NCBI GenBank assembly: GCA_013286835.1
Contig: JABDEZ010000018.1
Span: 1 to 35,051, forward strand
Direction of reading: 5' to 3'
From: Bacteroidota bacterium
GTDB taxonomy: Bacteria > Bacteroidota > Bacteroidia > Chitinophagales > Chitinophagaceae
DNA length: 35,051 nucleotides
Part shown: in pieces, positions 1,645 through 35,051 of the stretch
Layout: the number at the start of each line of letters is the position of its first letter
Position numbering within the stretch: position 1 is the first letter of the stretch
The notes under the pieces: generated by a model
Database searches by the model: none
What the model was told of the DNA's origin: nothing
The model's input: only the letters and a program-made list of their open reading frames with translations
Position numbers and translations under genes: made by a program

Positions 1645-4227
1645 TCATCGCACTACCGTTACATTACCCGTTTTATGATAAATCATATTGCTGCCGGCTA
1701 CTTTATATTGCAGTGTCCAAAAGTAGGTACCTAGCTGTACAGGTATGCCATGGTTGGTGCCGTTCCACTTACTGTTGCCCAAGCCATCAAATATACAGGT
1801 GCCCCATCTGTCGTAAACAGCAAGGCCAAATACCTCTATATTGGGGTTGTTGGCAATAACGTGGAAATAATCATTGAGTCCATCTACATTAGGCGTAAAT
1901 GCCGTTGGTAGCCATGCATCGTGAGGAATATCTGTAACGGTTATTTTATAGGTGCAACTGTCGCTGCAATCGCCATTGCTGATAACACATTTATAGGCAG
2001 ATAAATAATACATGGCATCCAGCGTATAATCGGTACAGTTTTCGCATACAAGCGAATCGTTTAGGTACCATTGAGTATTGGCTGCGGCTGCACAAGGCGG
2101 TAGTACCAGTGTGGTGTTATAGGGTACAATGATGGATGTGTCGGTGAACGATGACACAGGTTTGGGCAGCACAGTTACCTGTAGCGTACCTGTGTCGGCA
2201 CCTCCGACGCTAGCTGCCGTCAGTTTTACGGTATAAGTGCCGGGTACATTGTAGCAGATAGCAGAAGGGTTGGGTCCTTCATAAGTATCAGGTGTCCCAC
2301 CAGTAAATGTCCATTGGTATATCTGTGGGTAGTTGTGCGACTGTTGTACGAAGGTTAGACACTGCCCGTTGCAAAGCGTACCTGATGATGTAGTTACCTT
2401 GTCTATAACGGGCTCGCAGAAAGTTACATGTACAGTATCTGCATAGTCACCGCATTGCGTGGCAGAAGAAAGCCAATAGCTGCCCGGTGTATCTACCCGG
2501 ATAAACTGACTTGTGCCACCCGTGCTCCAGAGATATGTTCCCAGGTCAAAGCGGGAACTTATGTCTGCTCTCATAGTGTTGTTGCATACAAAAGTATCTG
2601 CCGGTAATATTGCAGTACCCAACGGGGGGTAAATAATTACCCGGAAGGTATCGTTATAGGTACAGCCTGCTATGTTTGCGTTAACAGCATATGTTCCACT
2701 CTGTGTTGTCGAAAATACAGGGCCTGTGGTATTGTTGCTCCATTGGTAATAGCCTGTGGTATCCAGCTTGACAGATGCAGTACCGGTACAGGAAAATGTA
2801 TCCTGCACCGCTATGCGCGGCTGATACATAACATAAAAGGTATCCACACGCCATGCACCCGGGCATGTTTGTGCTTTTACCCAGTAAATACCCGGCTGCC
2901 CAACGTTAATTGACTGACTCGTGGCGCCTGTGTTCCATACATAATCTGCAGAAGCAATAACTGATGATAGCTGGTGAGGAAGATTGCAAGCATGAACATT
3001 ATAACTGAACGAAGCCTCATTGGCGGGTACTCTGCTGCTGAGCCCCCCCCATTCAAACCAATTATTCAAACTATTAGCGTAGTTAGTATCAACTGCTATC
3101 GCATTAGGTATCACATTGCATGCTAATCCGTATTCATTGGGTTTATCTACTATGCCTATATACACAGAATCAGTACTATCTGCGTAATATAGGGCGTATA
3201 TTTTGTCATCAGGCCCTATTTGCAGTTGATTGCCCCAAGTAGTAACGACCAGCAGCCCAAGGGATATTTTTGAATTGCGTATGGCGGTTGCTGTAGGCAA
3301 GGAAATATCCAATTGAGTTAGATAAGGATAAGGATTAAATAAATTTGCCTGGTTTTTATCATTGTATAAGTACACCTTCGAGCGGTCGGCTGAAAACTCA
3401 ACCGAGGAACCTGATCGACCTGTTGACTGAATATTTATGCTGGTGTCTATCAATATAGGATGATCAATTAGTCCTGTATTCACGTTAAAATCAAATAACT
3501 GCATAAAGTAGTCTGATTCACACCATATTAATTTTTCATCATCCAACGAGATCTTTATGTTATCGCCATAAATGTTGTACGCATGGTAAGATTGATTTCC
3601 GGTGGCAGATGTTACCGCCGGACTTATTCCTGCAGGTGTGATATGAAAGGAATGAAATTCATTTGAAAAGAGCTGGTGCGTTATTATCCACTTATTGCAT
3701 TGCCCACTGCCTGCTGCTGCCATTGATGGGCTCACATTTGTATCTAATAATACGGCGTTATAACCAGGCACTATATCTCCTAAACCGCCGTTTAGCGTCA
3801 TATCTACTACACTATAGTACAATCCAGTTAGAACAAATGTGTCGTAATAATTCGGCGGCCCAGAAAAAATGTAAAAACGATTATTATTAGCCGGATCCGG
3901 AATGATCGATGCATTGCACCCAACAGTATCAATAGATGGGATGCTTGTACTTTGGAGTGGAACATTAAGATGCCCGTTAGGCATCATGTTGTTATTACGG
4001 TCCCACACCGCAGCTCCATTGGTATAAAAAAGTATGTTCCCGGCAGCATCGCTTATGGTTGCAGATGTCTGTTGTGCCATTATACTGCTGACAAATTGGT
4101 GCGGAGGGTTGGTATTAAAAGACAGGCCATTGTTGTGGCCAAAGCACCAGTTGTTATTTTCTTTTTGCGCCATTGCAGGCTGTAAAAAAGAAAATATGAG
4201 GCATATGAGCAGTGATCGTGTTTTCAT
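1645..4227 (-). CDS. T9SS type B sorting domain secreted protein with PKD domain
   Basis: The 860-residue product starts with a Sec signal peptide (residues 1-20, ending PAMA-Q). The first half (~22-430) looks like the propeller-like region common in these proteins: WCFGHNNGLSFNT, NILFYTNGAAVWD, a repeated nnRFYIF/vYLYN pattern and DDKIYALYYAD. Ig-like segments with YVWNTGATSQSI-type motifs follow (~435-625). A PKD domain (about 630-700; YQWTFTGGTPDTYEG, GTYTVKLTA) and another Ig-like stretch come next. The last ~85 residues form the gliding-motility-type CTD: LPTAFTPNVDGLNDYF, VYDRWG, WNGTN, GTYFW, ending GNVTVVR. That domain directs export through the type IX system and surface attachment. 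The function of the passenger is unknown. It appears monocistronic. Confidence 0.88.
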   Translation of the reverse strand: MKTRSLLICLIFSFLQPAMAQKENNNWCFGHNNGLSFNTNPPHQFVSSIMAQQTSATISDAAGNILFYTNGAAVWDRNNNMMPNGHLNVPLQSTSIPSIDTVGCNASIIPDPANNNRFYIFSGPPNYYDTFVLTGLYYSVVDMTLNGGLGDIVPGYNAVLLDTNVSPSMAAAGSGQCNKWIITHQLFSNEFHSFHITPAGISPAVTSATGNQSYHAYNIYGDNIKISLDDEKLIWCESDYFMQLFDFNVNTGLIDHPILIDTSINIQSTGRSGSSVEFSADRSKVYLYNDKNQANLFNPYPYLTQLDISLPTATAIRNSKISLGLLVVTTWGNQLQIGPDDKIYALYYADSTDSVYIGIVDKPNEYGLACNVIPNAIAVDTNYANSLNNWFEWGGLSSRVPANEASFSYNVHACNLPHQLSSVIASADYVWNTGATSQSINVGQPGIYWVKAQTCPGAWRVDTFYVMYQPRIAVQDTFSCTGTASVKLDTTGYYQWSNNTTGPVFSTTQSGTYAVNANIAGCTYNDTFRVIIYPPLGTAILPADTFVCNNTMRADISSRFDLGTYLWSTGGTSQFIRVDTPGSYWLSSATQCGDYADTVHVTFCEPVIDKVTTSSGTLCNGQCLTFVQQSHNYPQIYQWTFTGGTPDTYEGPNPSAICYNVPGTYTVKLTAASVGGADTGTLQVTVLPKPVSSFTDTSIIVPYNTTLVLPPCAAAANTQWYLNDSLVCENCTDYTLDAMYYLSAYKCVISNGDCSDSCTYKITVTDIPHDAWLPTAFTPNVDGLNDYFHVIANNPNIEVFGLAVYDRWGTCIFDGLGNSKWNGTNHGIPVQLGTYFWTLQYKVAGSNMIYHKTGNVTVVR

Positions 4228-5108: not shown

Positions 5109-5741
5109 ATGCCCCTCATTAAAGAATGGAACCCCGGCAATTATGGTCTTGCCGCTATATGGCACGTTACTGAGCCGGAAGCTTTTTTCACCGAACATAC
5201 CGGAGTGGTATCAGACATTAAAAATGAGAAGCGTCGGCTGGAACGCTTAGCAGGTCGATACCTGTTGAAGCACCTACAGGAAGATTTCCCCCTGCATGCC
5301 ATTGCTCCAGATCCGCACGATAAGCCACGCATAGATGAAGATAAATATTTCTTCTCCATCAGCCATTCATGGCCTTATGTGGCAGTAGTTGTAGATCCCG
5401 AAGATGAAGCAGGCATAGATATACAATGCTGGCACCCGCGTATATTGGGCATACAACACAAGTTTTTAAGTGCCGAAGAGCAGGAAATGTTTGGCAATGA
5501 CGAGCAATTGGTAACCCTTGCATGGGCAGCGAAAGAAGCAGTATATAAATGGATAGGCCGCCGTGGAATAGACTTTATTGAACATATGCCCATTACTTAC
5601 TTTGCGAAAGGTGATGAATACAGCCTTATGATATACGCAAAAGGCCGACAGGTACCTATGATGATTACTGTAACAGGCGTTTTAACAGAAAATTACGCAT
5701 GTGCATATGTTACAGGTACCGAGGAATGGGCTATATATTAA
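5109..5741 (+). CDS. 4'-phosphopantetheinyl transferase superfamily protein
   Basis: This protein transfers phosphopantetheine from CoA to a serine of acyl or peptidyl carrier proteins. Motifs are the substrate Arg/Lys region KRRLERLAGRYLL, FSISHSWPYVAV (family SxSHS), GIDIQ at residues 102-106 with the metal-binding Asp104, and WAAKEAVYKW with Lys142 and Glu143. At about 210 residues it fits the two-lobed Sfp-like class. The reading frame extends up to 5049, but the start at 5109 is preferred. Family homology begins there, and a TACCTTTA promoter-like element (5097-5104) lies only four bases upstream, within the longer frame. No carrier protein, PKS or NRPS gene is nearby, so its target may be the fatty-acid ACP or a distant cluster. 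Confidence 0.85.
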   Translation: MPLIKEWNPGNYGLAAIWHVTEPEAFFTEHTGVVSDIKNEKRRLERLAGRYLLKHLQEDFPLHAIAPDPHDKPRIDEDKYFFSISHSWPYVAVVVDPEDEAGIDIQCWHPRILGIQHKFLSAEEQEMFGNDEQLVTLAWAAKEAVYKWIGRRGIDFIEHMPITYFAKGDEYSLMIYAKGRQVPMMITVTGVLTENYACAYVTGTEEWAIY

Positions 5742-9828: not shown

Positions 9829-12800
9829 TTAGTTATCAGCTTTCACCAGTTTCTCTACAGAAACCAGGTTGCCATCTGCATCAGATATCCTGATCATATA
9901 GATACCATTTGCCAGCTCAGCTATGTTTAGGCTCTTTGCATTTGCTTTGCTAAAGAGTTCCTTACCATCCAGACTGTTTACAGATACATTCACCGCAAAT
10001 GGTGCATCAATGTAAACTATATCCCTTGCAGGGTTTGGATATACCCTTACATTCTGGCTGTTAACTACATTAGAAACACCAAGACTGTAGTGGTAAATAG
10101 CTGACATGTTACCGCAGCCATTGCTGTTGGTTACATATACCGTATAGTCACCACCTGCAGGTGCAGTGTACGTATTACTTGTGCCTGCAGCCGTTACAGG
10201 AACACCATCAAGATACCATTGGTAAGAATACTGACCACCTTGTGTACTGAGGGAACCACCATTACCTGTAATAACCGGATTGGGCAATGAGTTGACAGTA
10301 ACATTTACAGGTGTTGCAGTTTCAGTGCATCCGGCAGAATTACTAATAACCACAGAATAAGAATAAGTGCCTGGTGCAGTTGGGGAAGCCAACAGGCTAT
10401 CAGTTGTAACACCAACATTAGTTCCGTTTAGCTGCCATTGATAATTAATACCAGGGCCAGTACCTGCAGACAATGTAACACCGCCACCCTGACAGAATGT
10501 TGTAGGTCCGGAAGCACTAATTACATTACCCGGCAGCGGGAACTGCGTAACATTTACAGGTGAAGCAGTATCTATACAGTAGCTGTTCGATATTACCACA
10601 ACATTGTATAAACCTGCAGCATTAGCATTGTAAGAGATCAGGTTTGCACCTGGTATTGCTACACCATCATCGTACCACTGATAGGTGTAACCTGCACCTG
10701 AAGGCGCTGTTAATGTAACGCTGGTATTGTTGCAAAGTGCAGTAGAACCAGATGCAGCTATAGGACCAGAGGGAACCGGCAATGCAGTAACAAGAGTAGC
10801 TGCAGAAGTACCTATACAGTTATTCATATTAGTAACAGCTACGCTATAGTTGCCAGATGTTGTTGCACGGAAGCTGTCTTGTGTAGCGCCTGATATGTTA
10901 TTGCCATTGAACTGCCAGTTATAGGTAAATGACGGATTAAAGTTAGTAGTTAGCCGCACAGAACCACCATTACAGAAAACGTTAGAACCCGCTGATAATA
11001 CGCTTGCCGGAGGCAAAGGGAAAACCGTTACAGAGTCTGGTACCGAAGTACTGGAACAAGAGTTAACATCTGTTACCACAACACTATAGTTACCTGCATT
11101 GGTTGCAGAATATACCTGGTTAGTAGCACCGGATATTGTGGTACCATTCCGGCTCCATTGGTAAGAATAACCAGAGAACGCAGTTCCATTTGCAGTTAGC
11201 AATACATTACTGCCATTGCAGAATGCCAATGAAGTAGTGGTAGTAACAGTTGCTGTTGGCAGCGTATTAATATTTATAATAGCATCGAGACTAGTGTCAT
11301 TAGCACAACCATTACCTATTATTACTCTGTAGCGGCCTGCATCGAGTATTGTGCCGGCGGCGATTGTAATACAAGGCGAGTTCTGGTAAGCAAGTGGTAA
11401 ATCGACATCGTCTTTCTGCCACCTGTATGTACCTGCATTCAAGGCACCTACGCAAAGATGAATTGGAGATCCAGTACACACACCTTGTGAAAGAGGCTGA
11501 TCGATAATGGGTGATGCACCACCAATTGTAAATGTTACTTTATTTGAAGTATCGGGCAATGCACACGCACCGGTTATTACTGCATAGTAAAGACCGGAAT
11601 CTGATGGAGTAGGGATCAGCCTCGTATAAACCGGAGCATTTGCGCTCGGTATTGCTATGTCATTATGATACCATTGGTATTGCAGACTGGCACCGGTAGC
11701 TGCTACTGTGAATGTAATAGGTAACCCACCAATACAACCACCGGTTGACTGGGGTTGCGTGGTAATTACTGTTGGAGGACATCCTTCACCTATCTGGTAC
11801 AAGCCTGCAAGGCCGGTAGGCGCAAGTGTATCTATTGAAATAGACGTTGCAGCCTGTCCTATAGAATGCAGGTAATACCACGTAGTACCTGCGGGGTTAA
11901 CACCAACTTTAAAGTTCTGGTAATTAGCTGTTGGGGTTATATCGCCAGGAACAAAAGTAAAGGATACACCTATTGAATTTGGAGTCGTTACCAAGGTTGG
12001 CGATGTACTAATAGTGTAAGTACGGTTGATCAATTTCAATGGGTTGAATGAAGAGAATGACAATGTACTTGCAACCGCAGGCTGTGTACTTACAGCTATA
12101 TCGCCGGCAGCAATAACATTGGTTCCTGTACCTGAAATTGAAACAGGTGTATAGTTATTGCTATCGCCTATTGGATATTTGAAATTACCTGAACCCATAG
12201 CACCAATGACTGCGTGTTTCTGGTAGGTACCTACTATCCAGCCTGTTATGGCACTTGCATTGTTGTTGGTACCTGATGCACCGGTTTCAGCAAATGCACC
12301 GGTTGCCATGATAATACGGCTTGGAACATTGTTCTCTGGTACAAAGGTAATAAGATCACTACTTGGGACAGACAAATTACTACCTGTGTTGAATACAACA
12401 TATGGAGGACTTAAGGTTTTGATATTACCCAGGTTGGCTGTATTGGTAGTACCGTTTACAAAGATACCGTTACCCGTAACACGCTGTGGCTGGTTGGCCA
12501 ATGTTGGCGCTGCAGGAGCAATAGCTGTTGCTGACCCTACAAACTGTAACTGGCCAAAGGTGAGCGTACCCGCATCATCCGAGGTAAGCTTCCCACCACT
12601 GTTTACCGCAAGGCTACCATTGAGTACCAGATCACGATTAGAGAATTGGTATTCACCACCGCTATTGATGGTCATTGAGTTTTGTACACCTATACCTGTG
12701 TAGTAAGTAGTTACTGCCCTGTTGGTACCTGCACCACCATTTATAACAAGGTTACTGAAATTAAACAATGAAGATACACCAGACCCTGTGGTCATCAACA

Positions 12801-15800
12801 GGAAGCCTCTTGTATTACCACCCGCATCGGTTGAGGTACTATTACCAAATGTAAAGGTATGAGCAGATGAATCATTGAACATTGGAGTACCAGCAGGAAC
12901 TACAAACTCGAACGCCGCAGGCAAACCACTGAATGGATTAAGATAAGTAGTATCTGCAGGAGGATCGACAATGGTTACATTGCCACCATAAAAGTGAATA
13001 GCTGGTGTTTGCAGACTGAACAAGGCACGTCCGTGAGGTACACTGTGTGCCAGCTGGTTTACCAGGTTAGTTTCACCTGTATTACCATCAACAGTTATGT
13101 TACCACCCGATTGTGTAAAGTAAGAACCACCCAGCGAAGCAAAGTTACCATTGATGTTAAGCGTACTTCCTGTACCTACGCTAAAGCCTCCATAGTTTTC
13201 AAATGGTTTGTTACCACCATTTAAAGTACCCATACCTATACCTACAGTACCACCGTTAAGAATGAAGCTACCATAATTGTATATACCTACATTAGCGAAT
13301 GCTGATATCTCGCTTGCAGTATTGTTGCTATTGACCAGCAAACTACCAGCAGTAATATTAACTGCACCGTTATTTACGAATGAGCTATCTACATTCAGTA
13401 CATTACCAGAAGTACTGTTATTAACAGTACCCAATACTGTAAGCGATTTGGCAACACAACTAGCAGAGCTGACGGTAGAAACAACACCAGGATTGATGAC
13501 TGCAATACTTGTAGCAGCAGGTACAGCATTAACATCCCAGTTGCTTGCAGTGGTCCATGGCCCAGTAGTTACCTGGGTATAAACGCCTGATGCACCAGTA
13601 TTGATATCGACTGCATTAGCTGCAAAGTACCATGGACTGCCTGTGAGGTCAGTACCCAACAGACCTGTTCTTGTTGCTGTAAAGTTTGGTGCAGAACCAC
13701 CACCACCGCCATTGGCACCCGGTGCTGCATTTACGTGGGTAAGACGCAGTTGGTTGATATTAATAGGATTGAGCAAGTTGCCTGCTGTGGCCTTGATATT
13801 AAAGGTGGCACCAGAAGTTAAAGTAAGCTGGTTGCCTGTAGCAAAGCTCCATGAAGCATTGGTACGTGTATCCATTATATAACCGCCATCATTAACAGTA
13901 GGATTTAGCGCTGATGTACCTGTAGCTGCATTATGTGTTAATGTTATAGTACCACCTGCACCCAGGGCGTTAGCTGCACTGAAGAAAACAGATACATTTC
14001 TATTGGATGGACCGTATGATACAGGGAAGAAACCCTGGCTGGTAAGACCATTACCTGCAGTTACGTTCGCCGCTATAGGCAGCCCTGCGGTACCAAACCA
14101 GCGTGTGAGTGAACCCGTAGTAAGGCGCACATTACCATTACCCAGTACATTGGCATAAGAGGTTCCACCTGCAGGCTCCATAATAGTACCCTGGTTTGTA
14201 GCCAGCGTGCTGTTGCCTATAGTAAGACCGTAAGAACTCATGTCTATATCACCCGAGAGGAAGGTAAGCGTACCAGGTATAGTTGCATTGAATGGGACTT
14301 GTACGGCGTTACCCGTATTTACATTTATTACTACATTGAAAGGGGCTGTTGTTGACGGCCATACTGCAGCCGTTGCAGTAATATTGCCTGCAGTATCGAA
14401 TGTAAGTGTAGAGTTGGTTGTAGCATATTGCAACAGCAGCGATGTATTGATCGGGTTAGCTGCTGTTGTAGATATACGCACACCACCACCACTGTTGATG
14501 GCAAGTACAGGTGTTGAACCCAGGCTGTTGATACCAACAAGGTTGATACCGGCAGCATTACCTACACGATAAACTATAGGACCGGCAGGTGCATTACTAA
14601 GTGTTACATTCTGTGTACCACTAGTACCGTTGAAGAACAGGTTGGGCTGAGTAGTGAGTGTACCACTGCTTTGTATATTACCACCCAATTGGTTAAATGT
14701 ACCTGTCAGCGTAAGTACCTGTGTACCAGCGGCAACACTTGCCCCTGTGCTCACATCAAATGTACCACCAGCCTGTATAAAATTATTAAGGGTATCATTA
14801 TATGCTTGTGTACTTGCCAATGCCCATGTACCTGTACCGGTAGAAGTTATGTTAAAAGTATCTGTTACATTGAGATGTACACCATTCCAGTTACAAACGG
14901 ATGTTTGATTGTATGCATTGTACACAAAATTTTGGAAAACCTGATTAAGGCTGGTGGCAAGCGGACCAACCGTAGAGGTCGTGTAGCCGGAAATAAGGAC
15001 AGTAGAACCAGGATTCCAGGTAGCAGGATAAACAATGAAACCACCTACTGTAGTATATCCATTATTAAAGGTACCATTAATAATAAGCGATGACGCAGAA
15101 GGAACAACAAAAGGATATATATCCATAGTACCGCCTGCAGCAAGTTGCCCCTGAGTACCAACGGTAGCAACTGAGTTGCTAAAATCAACTACGTTCAGTC
15201 CATTGTTATTATTTATTGCAAGGGTACCTTCAATATCGGGTAAGCTACCTGCGCCAAAATTCAGGGTGATGCCACCATCACCATCCAATATAAGACTTGA
15301 ACCTACAGCTATATCTATACCTGTAGCATTAGCTATACCATTTACGTTAGTAGTAAGTATGCCGGGATTGACAGACTGCAAATGCACTTGTGTAGTATTT
15401 GCAACACTTAAACGGCCTATACCTTGTGTATATATAGGTCCATCGGTGGGGGCACCGGTGGCGGTATCGGATATGCCATTGTTAAACACAAGAATATCTG
15501 TAGGGTCTGGTACTATGCGAGCAGGAGTCCAGTTGGCAGAGTTTGTAAAAGATGCCGACACAATCCTGTTCCAGGTATATGTATTAGTACTGCCGGTTGT
15601 TACGATACCAATAAGGGGAGTAGGTACATAATATGTAATAGAACAAGCACTACCGCTGGAATAAGGGAAAATAGTATAAGTATATGCCGTACCAGGAGTA
15701 AGACCAGGATCTGTAAATGAGGTTCCACTAGTGTCTGCAACCACAATACCATTGGCACCAAATACATTACCAACGTTATAGGTAGTGCCGTTTACCGGAG

Positions 15801-16815
15801 CACCTAACAATGGCCCTATAGACCGTACTACAACATAACCACTTGGCGGGTTAGCAGGTGCGGTAAAACTACCATTAACAATAGACGCACTAGTACTAAA
15901 AACAAGATTAGTGGGCAGTTGAGTGGAAAGTGGTGTTACGCAAGGTGGTATATATGTAACAGCAAAATCGTCCAGGTCTATATCACCGCCAACATTATAG
16001 GTTAGATCATTGGTAGATGGAGTAGCCTTGAAGATAATATATGCATTGGGGTTTGTGTAGTAGCTTGCTGGTACGGTGTATTGAAATTGCGTCCACATAG
16101 GATTGCCAAATTGATCTACTGGCAAAGTAAACTTTGGGTCGCCCCAAGGATAAATAGAATCGATAAGTGTACCGCCGGTTGACGTAGGCGATGAATTAAT
16201 ATAAACCTTTACTTGCTCAGTATAATCCTGGTTTATATACCCGGTCTGCAAAAAGAATGTTAGCCTTATTGTTCCAACCCCATTATAAGGAGCGTAGGCT
16301 GCATTTAAATTTAATGCAGGAGAAGCTAATTCACCAAAATATCCAAAGCGTGAACCCGCATTTCCATCGTTATACCCATTGCCTTGTGCAGCATAAACCA
16401 TAAACCCTCCGCCATCGCAGTTATTATCAGCCTGCCCGTTATTTAATGGGGTTGGATAAGGAAAAAAATACTCATACTGGGTCCCATAGGGGCCAGAGGA
16501 AAGAGAGCAGCAGCCAAATGGGTCATAGTAAGCAAATGGGCTAGATGAGGGGTAGGGGGGGCAATCAGGGTAATAATAGGTCCCATTTACATAGGCGCTT
16601 CCCGCTAAATTATTCTGAAACCAAACCGGATAACCCTGATTACGATTGTTGTTGTCAAATGAATAATTGAACACACTATTTGTCCAGCCAGCGGGTATAG
16701 ACTGAAAGTAAGACGTTGTATCAAAATTTTGAGAATAGATGACCTGGGCATTAGTGTGGGGAGAGATCCCTGACATTGCGGCCAGGATCAATACTAGAAT
16801 TAGCAATTTTTTCAT
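9829..16815 (-). CDS. Giant T9SS type A sorting domain surface protein with beta-helix-like core and Ig-like array
   Basis: The 2328-residue secreted protein has a signal peptide (residues 1-23, ending HTNA-Q). Residues ~25-290 form a jelly-roll-like domain (SQNFDTT, PAGWTN, DIDLDDFAVTYI) interrupted by a Tyr/Pro/Cys-rich stretch at ~60-115. An FN3-like domain follows (~293-410). A very long repetitive strand region (~415-1660) has motifs such as YTWNRIVSASFTNSANWTP and GPWTTASNWDVNAVP and many short glycine/asparagine strands, suggesting a beta-helix. Seven Ig-like modules of ~80 residues lie at ~1675-2240 (YQWSRNGT, YQWYDDG, GNYSVVVTD). The C-terminal ~80 residues are the type A T9SS domain (VRVYPNPARDIVYID, NIAELANGIYMIRI). 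Likely a surface adhesin or matrix protein; no catalytic motif was seen. It is monocistronic. Confidence 0.88.
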   Translation of the reverse strand: MKKLLILVLILAAMSGISPHTNAQVIYSQNFDTTSYFQSIPAGWTNSVFNYSFDNNNRNQGYPVWFQNNLAGSAYVNGTYYYPDCPPYPSSSPFAYYDPFGCCSLSSGPYGTQYEYFFPYPTPLNNGQADNNCDGGGFMVYAAQGNGYNDGNAGSRFGYFGELASPALNLNAAYAPYNGVGTIRLTFFLQTGYINQDYTEQVKVYINSSPTSTGGTLIDSIYPWGDPKFTLPVDQFGNPMWTQFQYTVPASYYTNPNAYIIFKATPSTNDLTYNVGGDIDLDDFAVTYIPPCVTPLSTQLPTNLVFSTSASIVNGSFTAPANPPSGYVVVRSIGPLLGAPVNGTTYNVGNVFGANGIVVADTSGTSFTDPGLTPGTAYTYTIFPYSSGSACSITYYVPTPLIGIVTTGSTNTYTWNRIVSASFTNSANWTPARIVPDPTDILVFNNGISDTATGAPTDGPIYTQGIGRLSVANTTQVHLQSVNPGILTTNVNGIANATGIDIAVGSSLILDGDGGITLNFGAGSLPDIEGTLAINNNNGLNVVDFSNSVATVGTQGQLAAGGTMDIYPFVVPSASSLIINGTFNNGYTTVGGFIVYPATWNPGSTVLISGYTTSTVGPLATSLNQVFQNFVYNAYNQTSVCNWNGVHLNVTDTFNITSTGTGTWALASTQAYNDTLNNFIQAGGTFDVSTGASVAAGTQVLTLTGTFNQLGGNIQSSGTLTTQPNLFFNGTSGTQNVTLSNAPAGPIVYRVGNAAGINLVGINSLGSTPVLAINSGGGVRISTTAANPINTSLLLQYATTNSTLTFDTAGNITATAAVWPSTTAPFNVVINVNTGNAVQVPFNATIPGTLTFLSGDIDMSSYGLTIGNSTLATNQGTIMEPAGGTSYANVLGNGNVRLTTGSLTRWFGTAGLPIAANVTAGNGLTSQGFFPVSYGPSNRNVSVFFSAANALGAGGTITLTHNAATGTSALNPTVNDGGYIMDTRTNASWSFATGNQLTLTSGATFNIKATAGNLLNPININQLRLTHVNAAPGANGGGGGSAPNFTATRTGLLGTDLTGSPWYFAANAVDINTGASGVYTQVTTGPWTTASNWDVNAVPAATSIAVINPGVVSTVSSASCVAKSLTVLGTVNNSTSGNVLNVDSSFVNNGAVNITAGSLLVNSNNTASEISAFANVGIYNYGSFILNGGTVGIGMGTLNGGNKPFENYGGFSVGTGSTLNINGNFASLGGSYFTQSGGNITVDGNTGETNLVNQLAHSVPHGRALFSLQTPAIHFYGGNVTIVDPPADTTYLNPFSGLPAAFEFVVPAGTPMFNDSSAHTFTFGNSTSTDAGGNTRGFLLMTTGSGVSSLFNFSNLVINGGAGTNRAVTTYYTGIGVQNSMTINSGGEYQFSNRDLVLNGSLAVNSGGKLTSDDAGTLTFGQLQFVGSATAIAPAAPTLANQPQRVTGNGIFVNGTTNTANLGNIKTLSPPYVVFNTGSNLSVPSSDLITFVPENNVPSRIIMATGAFAETGASGTNNNASAITGWIVGTYQKHAVIGAMGSGNFKYPIGDSNNYTPVSISGTGTNVIAAGDIAVSTQPAVASTLSFSSFNPLKLINRTYTISTSPTLVTTPNSIGVSFTFVPGDITPTANYQNFKVGVNPAGTTWYYLHSIGQAATSISIDTLAPTGLAGLYQIGEGCPPTVITTQPQSTGGCIGGLPITFTVAATGASLQYQWYHNDIAIPSANAPVYTRLIPTPSDSGLYYAVITGACALPDTSNKVTFTIGGASPIIDQPLSQGVCTGSPIHLCVGALNAGTYRWQKDDVDLPLAYQNSPCITIAAGTILDAGRYRVIIGNGCANDTSLDAIININTLPTATVTTTTSLAFCNGSNVLLTANGTAFSGYSYQWSRNGTTISGATNQVYSATNAGNYSVVVTDVNSCSSTSVPDSVTVFPLPPASVLSAGSNVFCNGGSVRLTTNFNPSFTYNWQFNGNNISGATQDSFRATTSGNYSVAVTNMNNCIGTSAATLVTALPVPSGPIAASGSTALCNNTSVTLTAPSGAGYTYQWYDDGVAIPGANLISYNANAAGLYNVVVISNSYCIDTASPVNVTQFPLPGNVISASGPTTFCQGGGVTLSAGTGPGINYQWQLNGTNVGVTTDSLLASPTAPGTYSYSVVISNSAGCTETATPVNVTVNSLPNPVITGNGGSLSTQGGQYSYQWYLDGVPVTAAGTSNTYTAPAGGDYTVYVTNSNGCGNMSAIYHYSLGVSNVVNSQNVRVYPNPARDIVYIDAPFAVNVSVNSLDGKELFSKANAKSLNIAELANGIYMIRISDADGNLVSVEKLVKADN
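10110..11790 (-). repeat. Seven tandem Ig-like modules within the giant T9SS protein
   Basis: Seven modules of about 80 residues are recognisable by a repeated Cys near the start (FCNGS, FCNGG, LCNNT, FCQGG), a central Y-x-W (YQW, YNW, YRW) and a final YSVVVT-like strand with a second Cys. The last module lacks the first Cys. The DNA copies are diverged, so no recent duplication is evident. Confidence 0.7.
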
Positions 16816-21931: not shown

Positions 21932-21970
21932 AAAATGGCTGGAATTTGTATACAAATTCCAGCCATTTTT
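21932..21970. terminator. Bidirectional terminator between the metH unit and lysA
   Basis: A perfect 38-base palindrome with 19-base arms (21932-21950 and 21951-21969), centred on gtatac, begins aaaatggc and ends gccatttt. A/T runs on both sides serve the convergent genes on both strands. Confidence 0.92.
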
Positions 21971-31943: not shown

Positions 31944-34900
31944 ATGAAGTATTTCAACAAAAAAAACATATTGCTATCACTTACCGTACTTGTGGGATAC
32001 TTGAGTTTGCATAACGCTACGGGTACTGCTACAAACGGCAATGGTGACCGCACAGGATCTCCTTTTGCATATACAGGTGCTCCCACCTGTGCTTCAGCAG
32101 GTTCTTGCCATAACCAAAGCCCTGGTGTTTTTACTCCGGTTACTACCATACAGGTATATAATGGAATAACGCCTGTTACCAGTTATGTTGGGGGTACGGT
32201 TTATACAGTTACTATAACTGTAAGCTCACCTAATATAACAGCAAATACGCGTTATGGTTTCCAAACCGTTTCTGTACTGTCAAGCAATAATAACAGTACA
32301 GGTACCTGGCTTTCTTTACCGCCAGGTTTTGTATCTCCAATTGTTAATTCAAGAGTGTATGTTGAGCAGTCTGCTTCCCAAAGCGCTAATTCAGTAAACC
32401 TTACCTGGAGGGCACCAACGTCGGGCAGCGGTACCGTAAAGTTTTATGCCTCTGCACTGGTAGCTAACAATAACTTGCTGGCTACAGGCGACAATGCTGC
32501 TGATACTTCACTCAGCCTGCCTGAATTTGCAGTCTGCACACCACCAACTGTTACCCCTTCTATTAATCTGATCCATTGTAATAATGGTGCAGATGGCTCT
32601 ATAAACCTTACTGTAACAGGTGGCACTACCCCTTACATTTTTTCATGGACAGGGCCTGGCGGCTACACATCTACCGCGCAAAACATCTCGGGACTGGCTG
32701 CCGGTACTTATAATGTTACAGTTACAGGAGGCACATGCTCTTCTACTGCTTCTGTCACACTCAGCAACCCTGCACCAATAGTATTGGGTACATTAAGCCC
32801 AATTACCATATGCGAAGGCAACACACTGAACCTGACCGAAACTGCTTCAGGAGGTACCGGTACCCTTCAGTATTCGTGGACAGGGCCAAACGGCTTTACA
32901 TCTAATACACTCAGTCCTTCAATACAGTTAGTGCCTATCACAGATTCTGGCATATATACCCTAGTAGTAACTGATGGAAATGGTTGCACAGCTACAAAAA
33001 CCGTGCATGTTACCATAAATCCGGGTATAATATTGCAAGCAAATGCTACAAGCCCCTCATGTCATGGTGATATAAATGGTAGTATAGCCCTGTTCCCATC
33101 TGGCAGTGGCAATCAGCCGTTCTCTTACTCATGGACAGGGCCTAACGGTTTCACAGCTACTTCATCAAGCCTTGCAAACCTTGCTCCTGGTACTTATACA
33201 CTTGTAGCATCGCAAGCATCAGGCAGTTGCACACAAACATATAGCGCTACACTTACTGATCCTGCATTGCTAACGGCGGCAGCATCAGTTACTGCCACTC
33301 CTGTTTGTGTGGGCACACCCCTTAAATTAACTGGCGTGGGCACAGGCGGTACAGGTATTCTTACTTACCGGTGGAGCGCTCCAGGAAACTATTTTTCCAA
33401 CAACCAGAACCCTACGGTTACAAACACCGCAAACTATAATAACTCATTACTCTATACCCTTGCTGTAACAGATGCTAATAATTGTACCGCTTCAGCTACT
33501 GTAAATGCGGTTGTTGATACTATACCTACGGTAACAGCAACCGGTGTCGGCGCGCTCTGCAATGGTTCTGCAACGGGTGGTGTAAACGTTACTGCTACCG
33601 GTGGTTTGCCATTCACTTATGCTTATTCAGGCCCCAACTCATTTACTGCAAACACACAAAATATTACGAATGTACCTGCCGGCACTTATACTGTTACTGT
33701 AACTTCGGCTGCTGGTTGCTCTACTACAAAATCTGCTACAGTTACCCAGCCAGCAACATCTGTAACAGGTGCAGCAACATCCAACACACCATATTGCGCA
33801 AATGGCACCATAAACCTATTTGGTACAGGCAGTGGTGGTACAGGTGCAATATCTTACTCGTGGACAGGGCCTAACGGATTCACATCGCCCGTACAGAGCC
33901 CGTCTATATCATCTGCAACTATTTTGAACTCTGGCACATATATACTCACTGTAAGAGATGCCAACAATTGCAGCTTTTTAACCACTACAAATGTTCAGCA
34001 AAGCGTACAACCTGTTGTAGCAACAACTGTAACAAACGTCTCATGCTTCAACAGCAGCACCGGCTCTATAATCAGCACAGTAACAGGTGGGGCGCCACCA
34101 TTCACTTTTGCGTGGACAGGACCAAATGGTTATACCTCTAGTGCTCAGAACCCAACTAACCTTGCCGCCGGTATCTATTCTGTGGCTGTAGTAGGGGTAT
34201 GCTCAGGTACAGGTACAACATCCGTAATTGTAACGCAGCCTGCCGCTCTTTTAGATTCTATATATGCTAACAACCCCGTGTGTGCAGGTACTTTGCTGAA
34301 CATCAGCAGTGCAGTATCTGGTGGTACAGGCAACTATAATTACTCATGGACAGGACCTAACAATTTTATATCTACTACATCAAACCCATCTATACCTGTT
34401 GTAACAACTGCTGCAAGCGGACAATATACCCTTGTGGTACGTGATGGCAACAACTGCCTTAAAGCTGCACAATATGTTGTAACAGTTGATACTGTACCAA
34501 CTATACCACTAAAGGACACCAGCTATTGCCCAGGTGCTTCAGTAGTGCTGAATGCTGGCAACAATGGCGCTGCTTTCCTTTGGAATACAGGCGCTACCAC
34601 ACAGACAATAGAGGCAGGCACTGCAGGTAGCTACCATGTAATAGTAACCAATGGCTACGGCTGCCCTGCAACAAAAACCATCCAGGTTTCTGCAGGTTCA
34701 GTACCAACAGTTGATTCTATACATGCAGGTATAATAGCAACCAACCCTGGTGGCTTTAACTTCTCTGCAATAAATGCAAAATCTGTTTCGGCTTATCTGT
34801 GGGACTTTGGCGATACCCACACAGCGATCGGGGCTACACCAACGCACTATTATGCTGCAACCGGCACCTACCCTGTAAAATTATATGCTGCAAATGTTTG

Positions 34901-35051
34901 CGGTGTTGATACAGTAAGTAAACAACTAATAGTAACCGCAGTAACCGGCGTACAGAATGTAACTGGTGGCAAGGTTAGTTGGGTTCTGAGCACTAGAGGT
35001 ATAACCATTTGGTCCTGTCCACGCAAAAGTGAATGGTGGCGCCCCACCTGT
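31944..35051 (+). CDS. Choice-of-anchor V/SprB-repeat adhesin, 3' end missing
   Basis: The ATG at 31944 opens a frame that runs to the window edge (1036 codons without a stop). Residues 1-~26 are a signal peptide (LLSLTVLVGYLSLHNATGTA). Residues ~30-195 match the choice-of-anchor V/Reeler-like domain (NGNGDRTGSPFAYTGAPTC, then ASAGSCH). Four SprB modules (SWTGPNGFT, NLAAGTYTVTV) alternate with four Ig-like modules (GGTGTLQYSWTGPNGFT, DSGIYTLVVTD, ITICEG). Another Ig-like domain and a PKD domain (YLWDFGDT, YYAATGTYPVKLY) come next. The expected T9SS sorting domain should follow GVQNV (around base 34960), but from 34968 the sequence is the inverted copy of an internal segment, so the C-terminus is lost. 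Likely a surface adhesin exported by T9SS. Confidence 0.85.
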   Translation, partial: MKYFNKKNILLSLTVLVGYLSLHNATGTATNGNGDRTGSPFAYTGAPTCASAGSCHNQSPGVFTPVTTIQVYNGITPVTSYVGGTVYTVTITVSSPNITANTRYGFQTVSVLSSNNNSTGTWLSLPPGFVSPIVNSRVYVEQSASQSANSVNLTWRAPTSGSGTVKFYASALVANNNLLATGDNAADTSLSLPEFAVCTPPTVTPSINLIHCNNGADGSINLTVTGGTTPYIFSWTGPGGYTSTAQNISGLAAGTYNVTVTGGTCSSTASVTLSNPAPIVLGTLSPITICEGNTLNLTETASGGTGTLQYSWTGPNGFTSNTLSPSIQLVPITDSGIYTLVVTDGNGCTATKTVHVTINPGIILQANATSPSCHGDINGSIALFPSGSGNQPFSYSWTGPNGFTATSSSLANLAPGTYTLVASQASGSCTQTYSATLTDPALLTAAASVTATPVCVGTPLKLTGVGTGGTGILTYRWSAPGNYFSNNQNPTVTNTANYNNSLLYTLAVTDANNCTASATVNAVVDTIPTVTATGVGALCNGSATGGVNVTATGGLPFTYAYSGPNSFTANTQNITNVPAGTYTVTVTSAAGCSTTKSATVTQPATSVTGAATSNTPYCANGTINLFGTGSGGTGAISYSWTGPNGFTSPVQSPSISSATILNSGTYILTVRDANNCSFLTTTNVQQSVQPVVATTVTNVSCFNSSTGSIISTVTGGAPPFTFAWTGPNGYTSSAQNPTNLAAGIYSVAVVGVCSGTGTTSVIVTQPAALLDSIYANNPVCAGTLLNISSAVSGGTGNYNYSWTGPNNFISTTSNPSIPVVTTAASGQYTLVVRDGNNCLKAAQYVVTVDTVPTIPLKDTSYCPGASVVLNAGNNGAAFLWNTGATTQTIEAGTAGSYHVIVTNGYGCPATKTIQVSAGSVPTVDSIHAGIIATNPGGFNFSAINAKSVSAYLWDFGDTHTAIGATPTHYYAATGTYPVKLYAANVCGVDTVSKQLIVTAVTGVQNVTGGKVSWVLSTRGITIWSCPRKSEWWRPTC
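32540..34500 (+). repeat. Alternating SprB/Ig-like module array
   Basis: Eight modules of 77-85 codons repeat the motif S-W-T-G-P-N-G-F-T. The core Trp codon is at 32646, 32877, 33132, 33372, 33861, 34113 and 34347. A degenerate YSGPNS copy sits at 33624. The DNA core tggacaggnccnaacgg is nearly identical in six copies. Modules with NLAAGTY alternate strictly with modules opening GGTG and ending TLVVTD. Confidence 0.8.
34083..34166 (+). repeat. Source copy of the right-edge inverted repeat
   Basis: These 84 bases inside the adhesin gene encode part of a SprB module (FAWTGPNGYTSSAQNPTNLA). The last 84 bases of the window are their exact reverse complement. Confidence 0.95.
34968..35051 (-). 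repeat. Perfect 84-base inverted copy of 34083-34166 at the window end
   Basis: Reversed and complemented, 34968-35051 equals 34083-34166 without a mismatch, and similarity stops at 34967. The frame stays open through it only by chance (translation from WVLSTRGITIW is antisense). The perfect match, sharp border and position at the very end suggest a snap-back amplification chimera or an assembly-graph end. Confidence 0.9.

Follow-up and report, generated by a model that had tools for sequence, protein, structure and literature searches.

The perfect inverted repeat at the right edge of the window, i.e., of the whole 35,051-nt stretch of DNA that was analysed (bases 1–35051 of scaffold C18, which totals 35,338 nt), is best read as an in vitro template-switch chimera that the assembly incorporated next to a gap, a reading to which we assign a probability of about 0.87. 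The mark is most likely an ordinary artefact with no new biology in it, and a chimeric contig end best explains why a large surface protein seems to lack its T9SS sorting domain and has an aberrant C-terminus (KVSWVLSTRGITIWSC...). A sequence-only reading of the window had proposed an amplification or assembly chimera, and the proposal is supported by three further sites of this kind, by MDA-like microhomology at the junctions, and by the absence of the marks from a close relative.

An inverted insert in a surface-protein gene

Bases 34968–35051 of the window are the exact reverse complement of forward-strand bases 34083–34166, with 84 of 84 bases identical, which confirms the perfect 84-base inverted repeat described earlier; an exact 84-mer arising by chance is excluded. 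A repeat search of the window returned the same pair as 90-nt arms at 98%, the next longest of the nine inverted pairs listed being 26 nt at 77%. A stricter exact search also found one 38-nt palindrome, with arms of 19 nt, at 21932–21969.

The right edge is not the end of the contig: it adjoins a gap of 10 N (scaffold 35052–35061), and the scaffold continues beyond it. Bases 35062–35152, outside the window, are the reverse complement of forward-strand bases 33643–33733 (91/91), bases 35146–35180 are a direct copy of forward-strand bases 34938–34972 (35/35), and bases 35181–35338, which reach the scaffold end, are unique new sequence. The insert is flanked by the two 35-nt direct copies, and its two inverted pieces run one way, from 34166 to 34083 and, after the gap, from 33733 to 33643. 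At the first junction, the pentamer GGCAA (34968–34972, + strand) is common to the forward sequence and the inverted source; the putatively chimeric tail then runs for 79 nt beyond this microhomology on the reverse strand (34973–35051), up to the gap. The second junction, which the earlier reading had missed, exists at scaffold 35146–35152, about 95 nt beyond the window, and shares GCAGTAA (7 nt).

The gene in question occupies 31944–34972 on the + strand and encodes a large cell-surface protein with SprB, Ig-like and PKD domains and a Reeler domain on its N-terminal side. Its T9SS sorting domain was said to be replaced by the inverted copy, but the domain is displaced rather than lost. The first part of it lies at scaffold 35146–35338, past the window and in the frame of the gene, and matches both Por_Secre_tail (PF18962; 33.2 bits, cut-off 27, profile positions 1–44 of 75) and the T9SS type A sorting domain TIGR04183 (25.2 bits, cut-off 23, positions 1–41 of 72). 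The premises of a single junction and a replaced domain arose because the window is cut at the gap. If the inverted stretch is continuous, the insert measures 547 nt, which leaves a remainder of 1 and causes a frame shift with a stop at codon 1050.

The intact form of the gene is found in a same-genus relative, Flavipsychrobacter MAG_CO247, with 95% amino acid identity over residues 1–1006 of the surface protein; by position and identity, this sequence apparently represents contig C26 of the same-genus genome G001. When the insert is left out, with base 34972 joined to base 35181, 3185 nt of the scaffold align to the relative without a gap at 89.4% identity, and the reading frame into the sorting domain is restored. 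What follows downstream in the relative is found on another contig of our assembly, C84, whose first base lies 438 nt further on in the coordinates of the relative; the assembly therefore breaks again just past the insert.

Continuation into unique sequence past the inverted copy had been named in advance as the observation that would speak against an artefact. Such a continuation is present in the scaffold, although only across the N gap and as assembly sequence alone. It does not rescue a natural inversion, because the gene of the relative is uninterrupted and because marks of this type recur.

Marks of the same kind elsewhere in the assembly

We sampled 82 stretches of the same assembly, comprising 1,242,040 of its 2,668,605 non-N bases (46.5%), for non-hairpin exact inverted pairs of at least 20 nt lying within 6 kb. 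Six loci qualified, on C18, C17, C120, C60, C1 and C9. Besides that on C18, the sample contained three chimera-like local jumps, two of them inverted (C17 and C120) and one direct (C87).

On C17, 44 nt at 417–460 are inverted and copied from 81–124 without any gap, and are flanked by two 58-nt direct copies, the whole mark (361–512) lying no more than 512 nt from the contig start. In G001 both flanks align to a single place with a 58-nt overlap, so the duplication is single in the relative; the inverted piece matches only its source there. The 94-nt insert breaks an open frame, the longest frame in 2000-nt stretches being 534 codons with it and 656 without, and it splits a gene between its POTRA repeats and its Omp85 domain (Pfam). 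On C120, 32 nt are inverted from 4137–4168 and end at a 10-N gap. This insert is absent in G001, where the bases on either side of these 42 positions (copy plus gap) abut base to base; the right side belongs to a PKD/Ig-like protein (Pfam), and the left piece of 909 aa matched no Pfam family. The mark on C87 (1772–1839) contains a 58-nt direct copy of 1175–1232 that again stops at 10 N; to the right of the gap the sequence resumes 26 nt back (96%). By Pfam, PKD domains lie on one side of the mark and a CHU_C T9SS signal on the other, and the duplication is single in G001.

All four marks (C18, C17, C120 and C87) were absent from the one same-genus relative in which they were checked, and each either adjoins 10 N or lies no more than about 500 nt from a contig end. 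Surface proteins of the PKD or T9SS type account for three of the four marked genes. The jumps cover approximately 0.8 and 1.3 kb on C18, 0.3 kb on C17, 0.4 kb on C120 and, for the direct copy, 0.6 kb on C87. The sample held 16 short gaps, and we compared their 120-nt flanks with the sampled sequence, which brought the C87 mark to light. Three of the 13 ten-N gaps had a chimera-like flank (C18, C120 and C87). The other ten had no such flank in this comparison, in which copies from the remaining 53.5% of the assembly are undetectable; their number counts against a chimeric origin. From the coordinates, the tails at the gaps extend 79, 84, 28 and 52 nt beyond the microhomology. These lengths are all below the usual short-read length, as would be expected if single chimeric reads extended contig ends.

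The six visible junctions, five of which are inverted, share 5, 7, 2, 6, 4 and 6 nt, a sum of 30. For random joins in the window the mean is 0.69 nt, and none of 2,000,000 random six-junction draws reached 30; the sum of 18 for the four junctions outside C18 was reached by 2 of 2,000,000 random four-junction draws. The draws were of inverted joins within the sequence of the window only; the observed set of six includes one direct junction.

These results have a bearing on annotation. At least three further contigs bear similar marks, one of which splits an Omp85-type gene; caution is called for, and any pseudogene, truncation or inversion called near a gap or contig end of this genome should be compared with the relative.

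Probable origin of the marks

We infer the in vitro origin of the switches from the anatomy of the insert, the junction microhomologies, the intact gene of the relative and the recurrence of the marks, all of which would be chimeras retained as tails at contig ends or as short insertions. In the proposed sequence of events, a growing strand would reach about 34972, where its 3′ end would come off, re-anneal through GGCAA to an opposite-sense strand at 34162–34166 and copy backwards. A second switch, through GCAGTAA, would lead from about 33643 in the inverted copy back to + strand position 34938. Both chimeric tails, of 79 and 84 nt, would have survived assembly at a spot with probably weak coverage, and the scaffolder would have bridged them with 10 N. 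Gaps of ten N are a common habit of scaffolders. The true sequence would then pass straight from 34972 to scaffold base 35181. In one variant, a single inverted stretch of 524 nt would have been copied, its middle 349 nt being unplaceable; in another, two separate chimeric reads would meet at one gap, with the same appearance.

Among in vitro processes, phi29 MDA would be the most likely, at roughly two chances in three within the chimera reading, and on overlap and distance it fits best. Lasken and Stockwell (2007) found 85% of 475 MDA chimeras to be inverted, 83% of the inverted ones joining segments less than 10 kb apart, with complementarity of 2–21 nt in 76.8% (PMC1855051). Tu et al. (2015) gave an overlap peak of 6 nt, a distance peak of 250–300 nt and an inverted share of about 70% among visible pair-end chimeras (PMC4595205); with ChimeraMiner, about 91% were inverted (PMC6515389). 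Here, the joined segments are likewise mostly inverted (5/6) and local (less than 1.5 kb, where fewer than 10 kb is usual), all six visible junctions overlap within the 2–21 nt range, at 2–7 nt, and, relative to the departure point, the inverted targets lie upstream in C18 and C17 and downstream in C120.

About one chimeric read per 10–22 kb is reported for MDA (PMC1855051, PMC2731171). Two single-cell assemblies (SAGs) each had seven chimeric contigs with reads joining non-contiguous regions (Rodrigue et al. 2009; PMC2731171). Our assembly resembles these in that a few contigs, several sites in all, join non-contiguous regions, four being found in 82 stretches, with absence judged in the relative rather than in the true genome of this strain. 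In the single-cell study, however, the joins were read directly, whereas here we infer them from the assembly and the relative. The completeness of our assembly (69.43%, with 0.51% contamination) suits a single-cell genome or an ordinary MAG alike. One feature is at odds with MDA: C18 and C17 show both a departure and a return, C17 without a gap, whereas most MDA chimeras have a single switch, one-level chimeras making up 97.06% and 95.71% in two samples and two- or three-level ones being rare (PMC4595205).

Within the same overall probability, we also count chimeras formed during library preparation (by PCR, end repair or tagmentation fold-back) from an unamplified metagenome without any MDA, a possible though distinctly less favoured source. 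These would result in the same anatomy, and inverted artificial reads are also reported for ligation-based nanopore libraries (PMC13141652). Against them, distances of about 0.3–1.3 kb combined with overlaps of 2–7 nt match phi29 chimeras closely, and four sites in 46.5% of the assembly seem to us many, a judgement rather than a comparison with a published rate.

Outside the chimera reading, the alternative that survives best, although we consider it improbable, is a genuine mutation by template switching, in the cell or in its population, which would have placed an inverted segment from 0.8–1.3 kb upstream into the gene, with a 35-nt duplication, and broken it. The anatomy does fit the L-1, inverted 2-3, 4-R geometry of the four-point model of template switching, with the return point (4) preceding the departure point (1) (PMC7954356); both ends of this geometry are visible on C18, where the 10-N gap lies inside, and it is free of gaps on C17. 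A gap with tails is also what an assembler would leave where it broke on a real inverted duplication. However, the model was described there from comparisons between great-ape genomes, whereas here the event is known from one assembly alone. A mutation must also contend with three further local jumps, all absent in the relative and all beside 10 N or close to a contig end, and with the damage done, the C18 insert shifting the frame and the 94-nt C17 insert breaking an Omp85-type gene. Somewhat less probable still is a lineage with unusually high microhomology-mediated template switching in vivo, in which recent insertions at several loci would have broken genes, the one for this T9SS-exported surface protein among them.

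Slighter again is the likelihood of a pure assembler error, in which correct reads were misjoined in the graph in the absence of any chimeric molecule. The location of the mark at a 10-N scaffold gap would suit such an error, but the 2–7 nt shared at the junctions are far below the usual assembly k-mer, and for that reason the graph could contain these joins only if chimeric reads supplied them. Finally, a programmed cassette that inverts or duplicates to diversify the SprB-repeat protein is barely credible: although the sources of the copies fall within a surface-protein gene rich in repeats and three of the four marked genes are of surface type, the two inverted pieces start at different places and their junctions, of 5 and 7 nt, are unrelated, the reading frame is broken by the insert, the relative lacks the insert, and the same kind of mark occurs in an Omp85-type gene. 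Gene-breaking marks at four unrelated gap or contig-end sites, absent in the relative, are what would be expected of chimeric reads at thin coverage, and not of a functional cassette.

Natural repeats and the control genome

Of the other three qualifying loci, two are natural repeats. The 30-nt inverted pair on C60 was rejected as a chimera, being the terminal repeat of a dispersed element that also occurs on our contig C21 (93%) and at several places in G001; the element (5256–5430, about 165 nt with 30-nt terminal inverted repeats) is MITE-type in look. A 76-nt inverted pair on C1 was likewise rejected, because it belongs to a degenerate multi-copy repeat (2781–3270) present in both orientations. 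The 25-nt pair on C9 (397–421 and 3175–3199), with flanks that are similar but diverged, lies in a stretch that had no match in G001 and was assigned to neither class. A 32-nt pair on C25, about 9.7 kb apart, fell outside the 6-kb limit and was left out.

As a control, 539,876 non-N bases of G001 gave one qualifying inverted-pair locus, versus six in our 1,242,040 bases. This difference in rate (about 1.9 versus 4.8 per Mb) is weak evidence when taken alone, the control being unmatched in that it has fewer contig ends, no 10-N gaps and several all-N stretches. The argument for chimeras is carried by the site-by-site comparison with the relative, and not by the rate of loci.

On C11 (4378–8495), a 100-N gap is accompanied by long direct repeats, exact over 1245 nt, which look like a tandem duplication or an assembly duplicate; the flanks of this gap are direct repeats of another kind than the chimera-like marks. 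Long direct repeats were also seen on C19, C1, C3 and C9. The window itself encodes a protein of 2328 aa (9829–16815) that combines Ig-like domains with a T9SS sorting domain at its C-terminus, and another T9SS protein, of the CHU_C type (1645–4227), and contig C10 (5652–8531) carries a paralogue of the surface-protein gene, with 40–45% amino acid identity in pieces.
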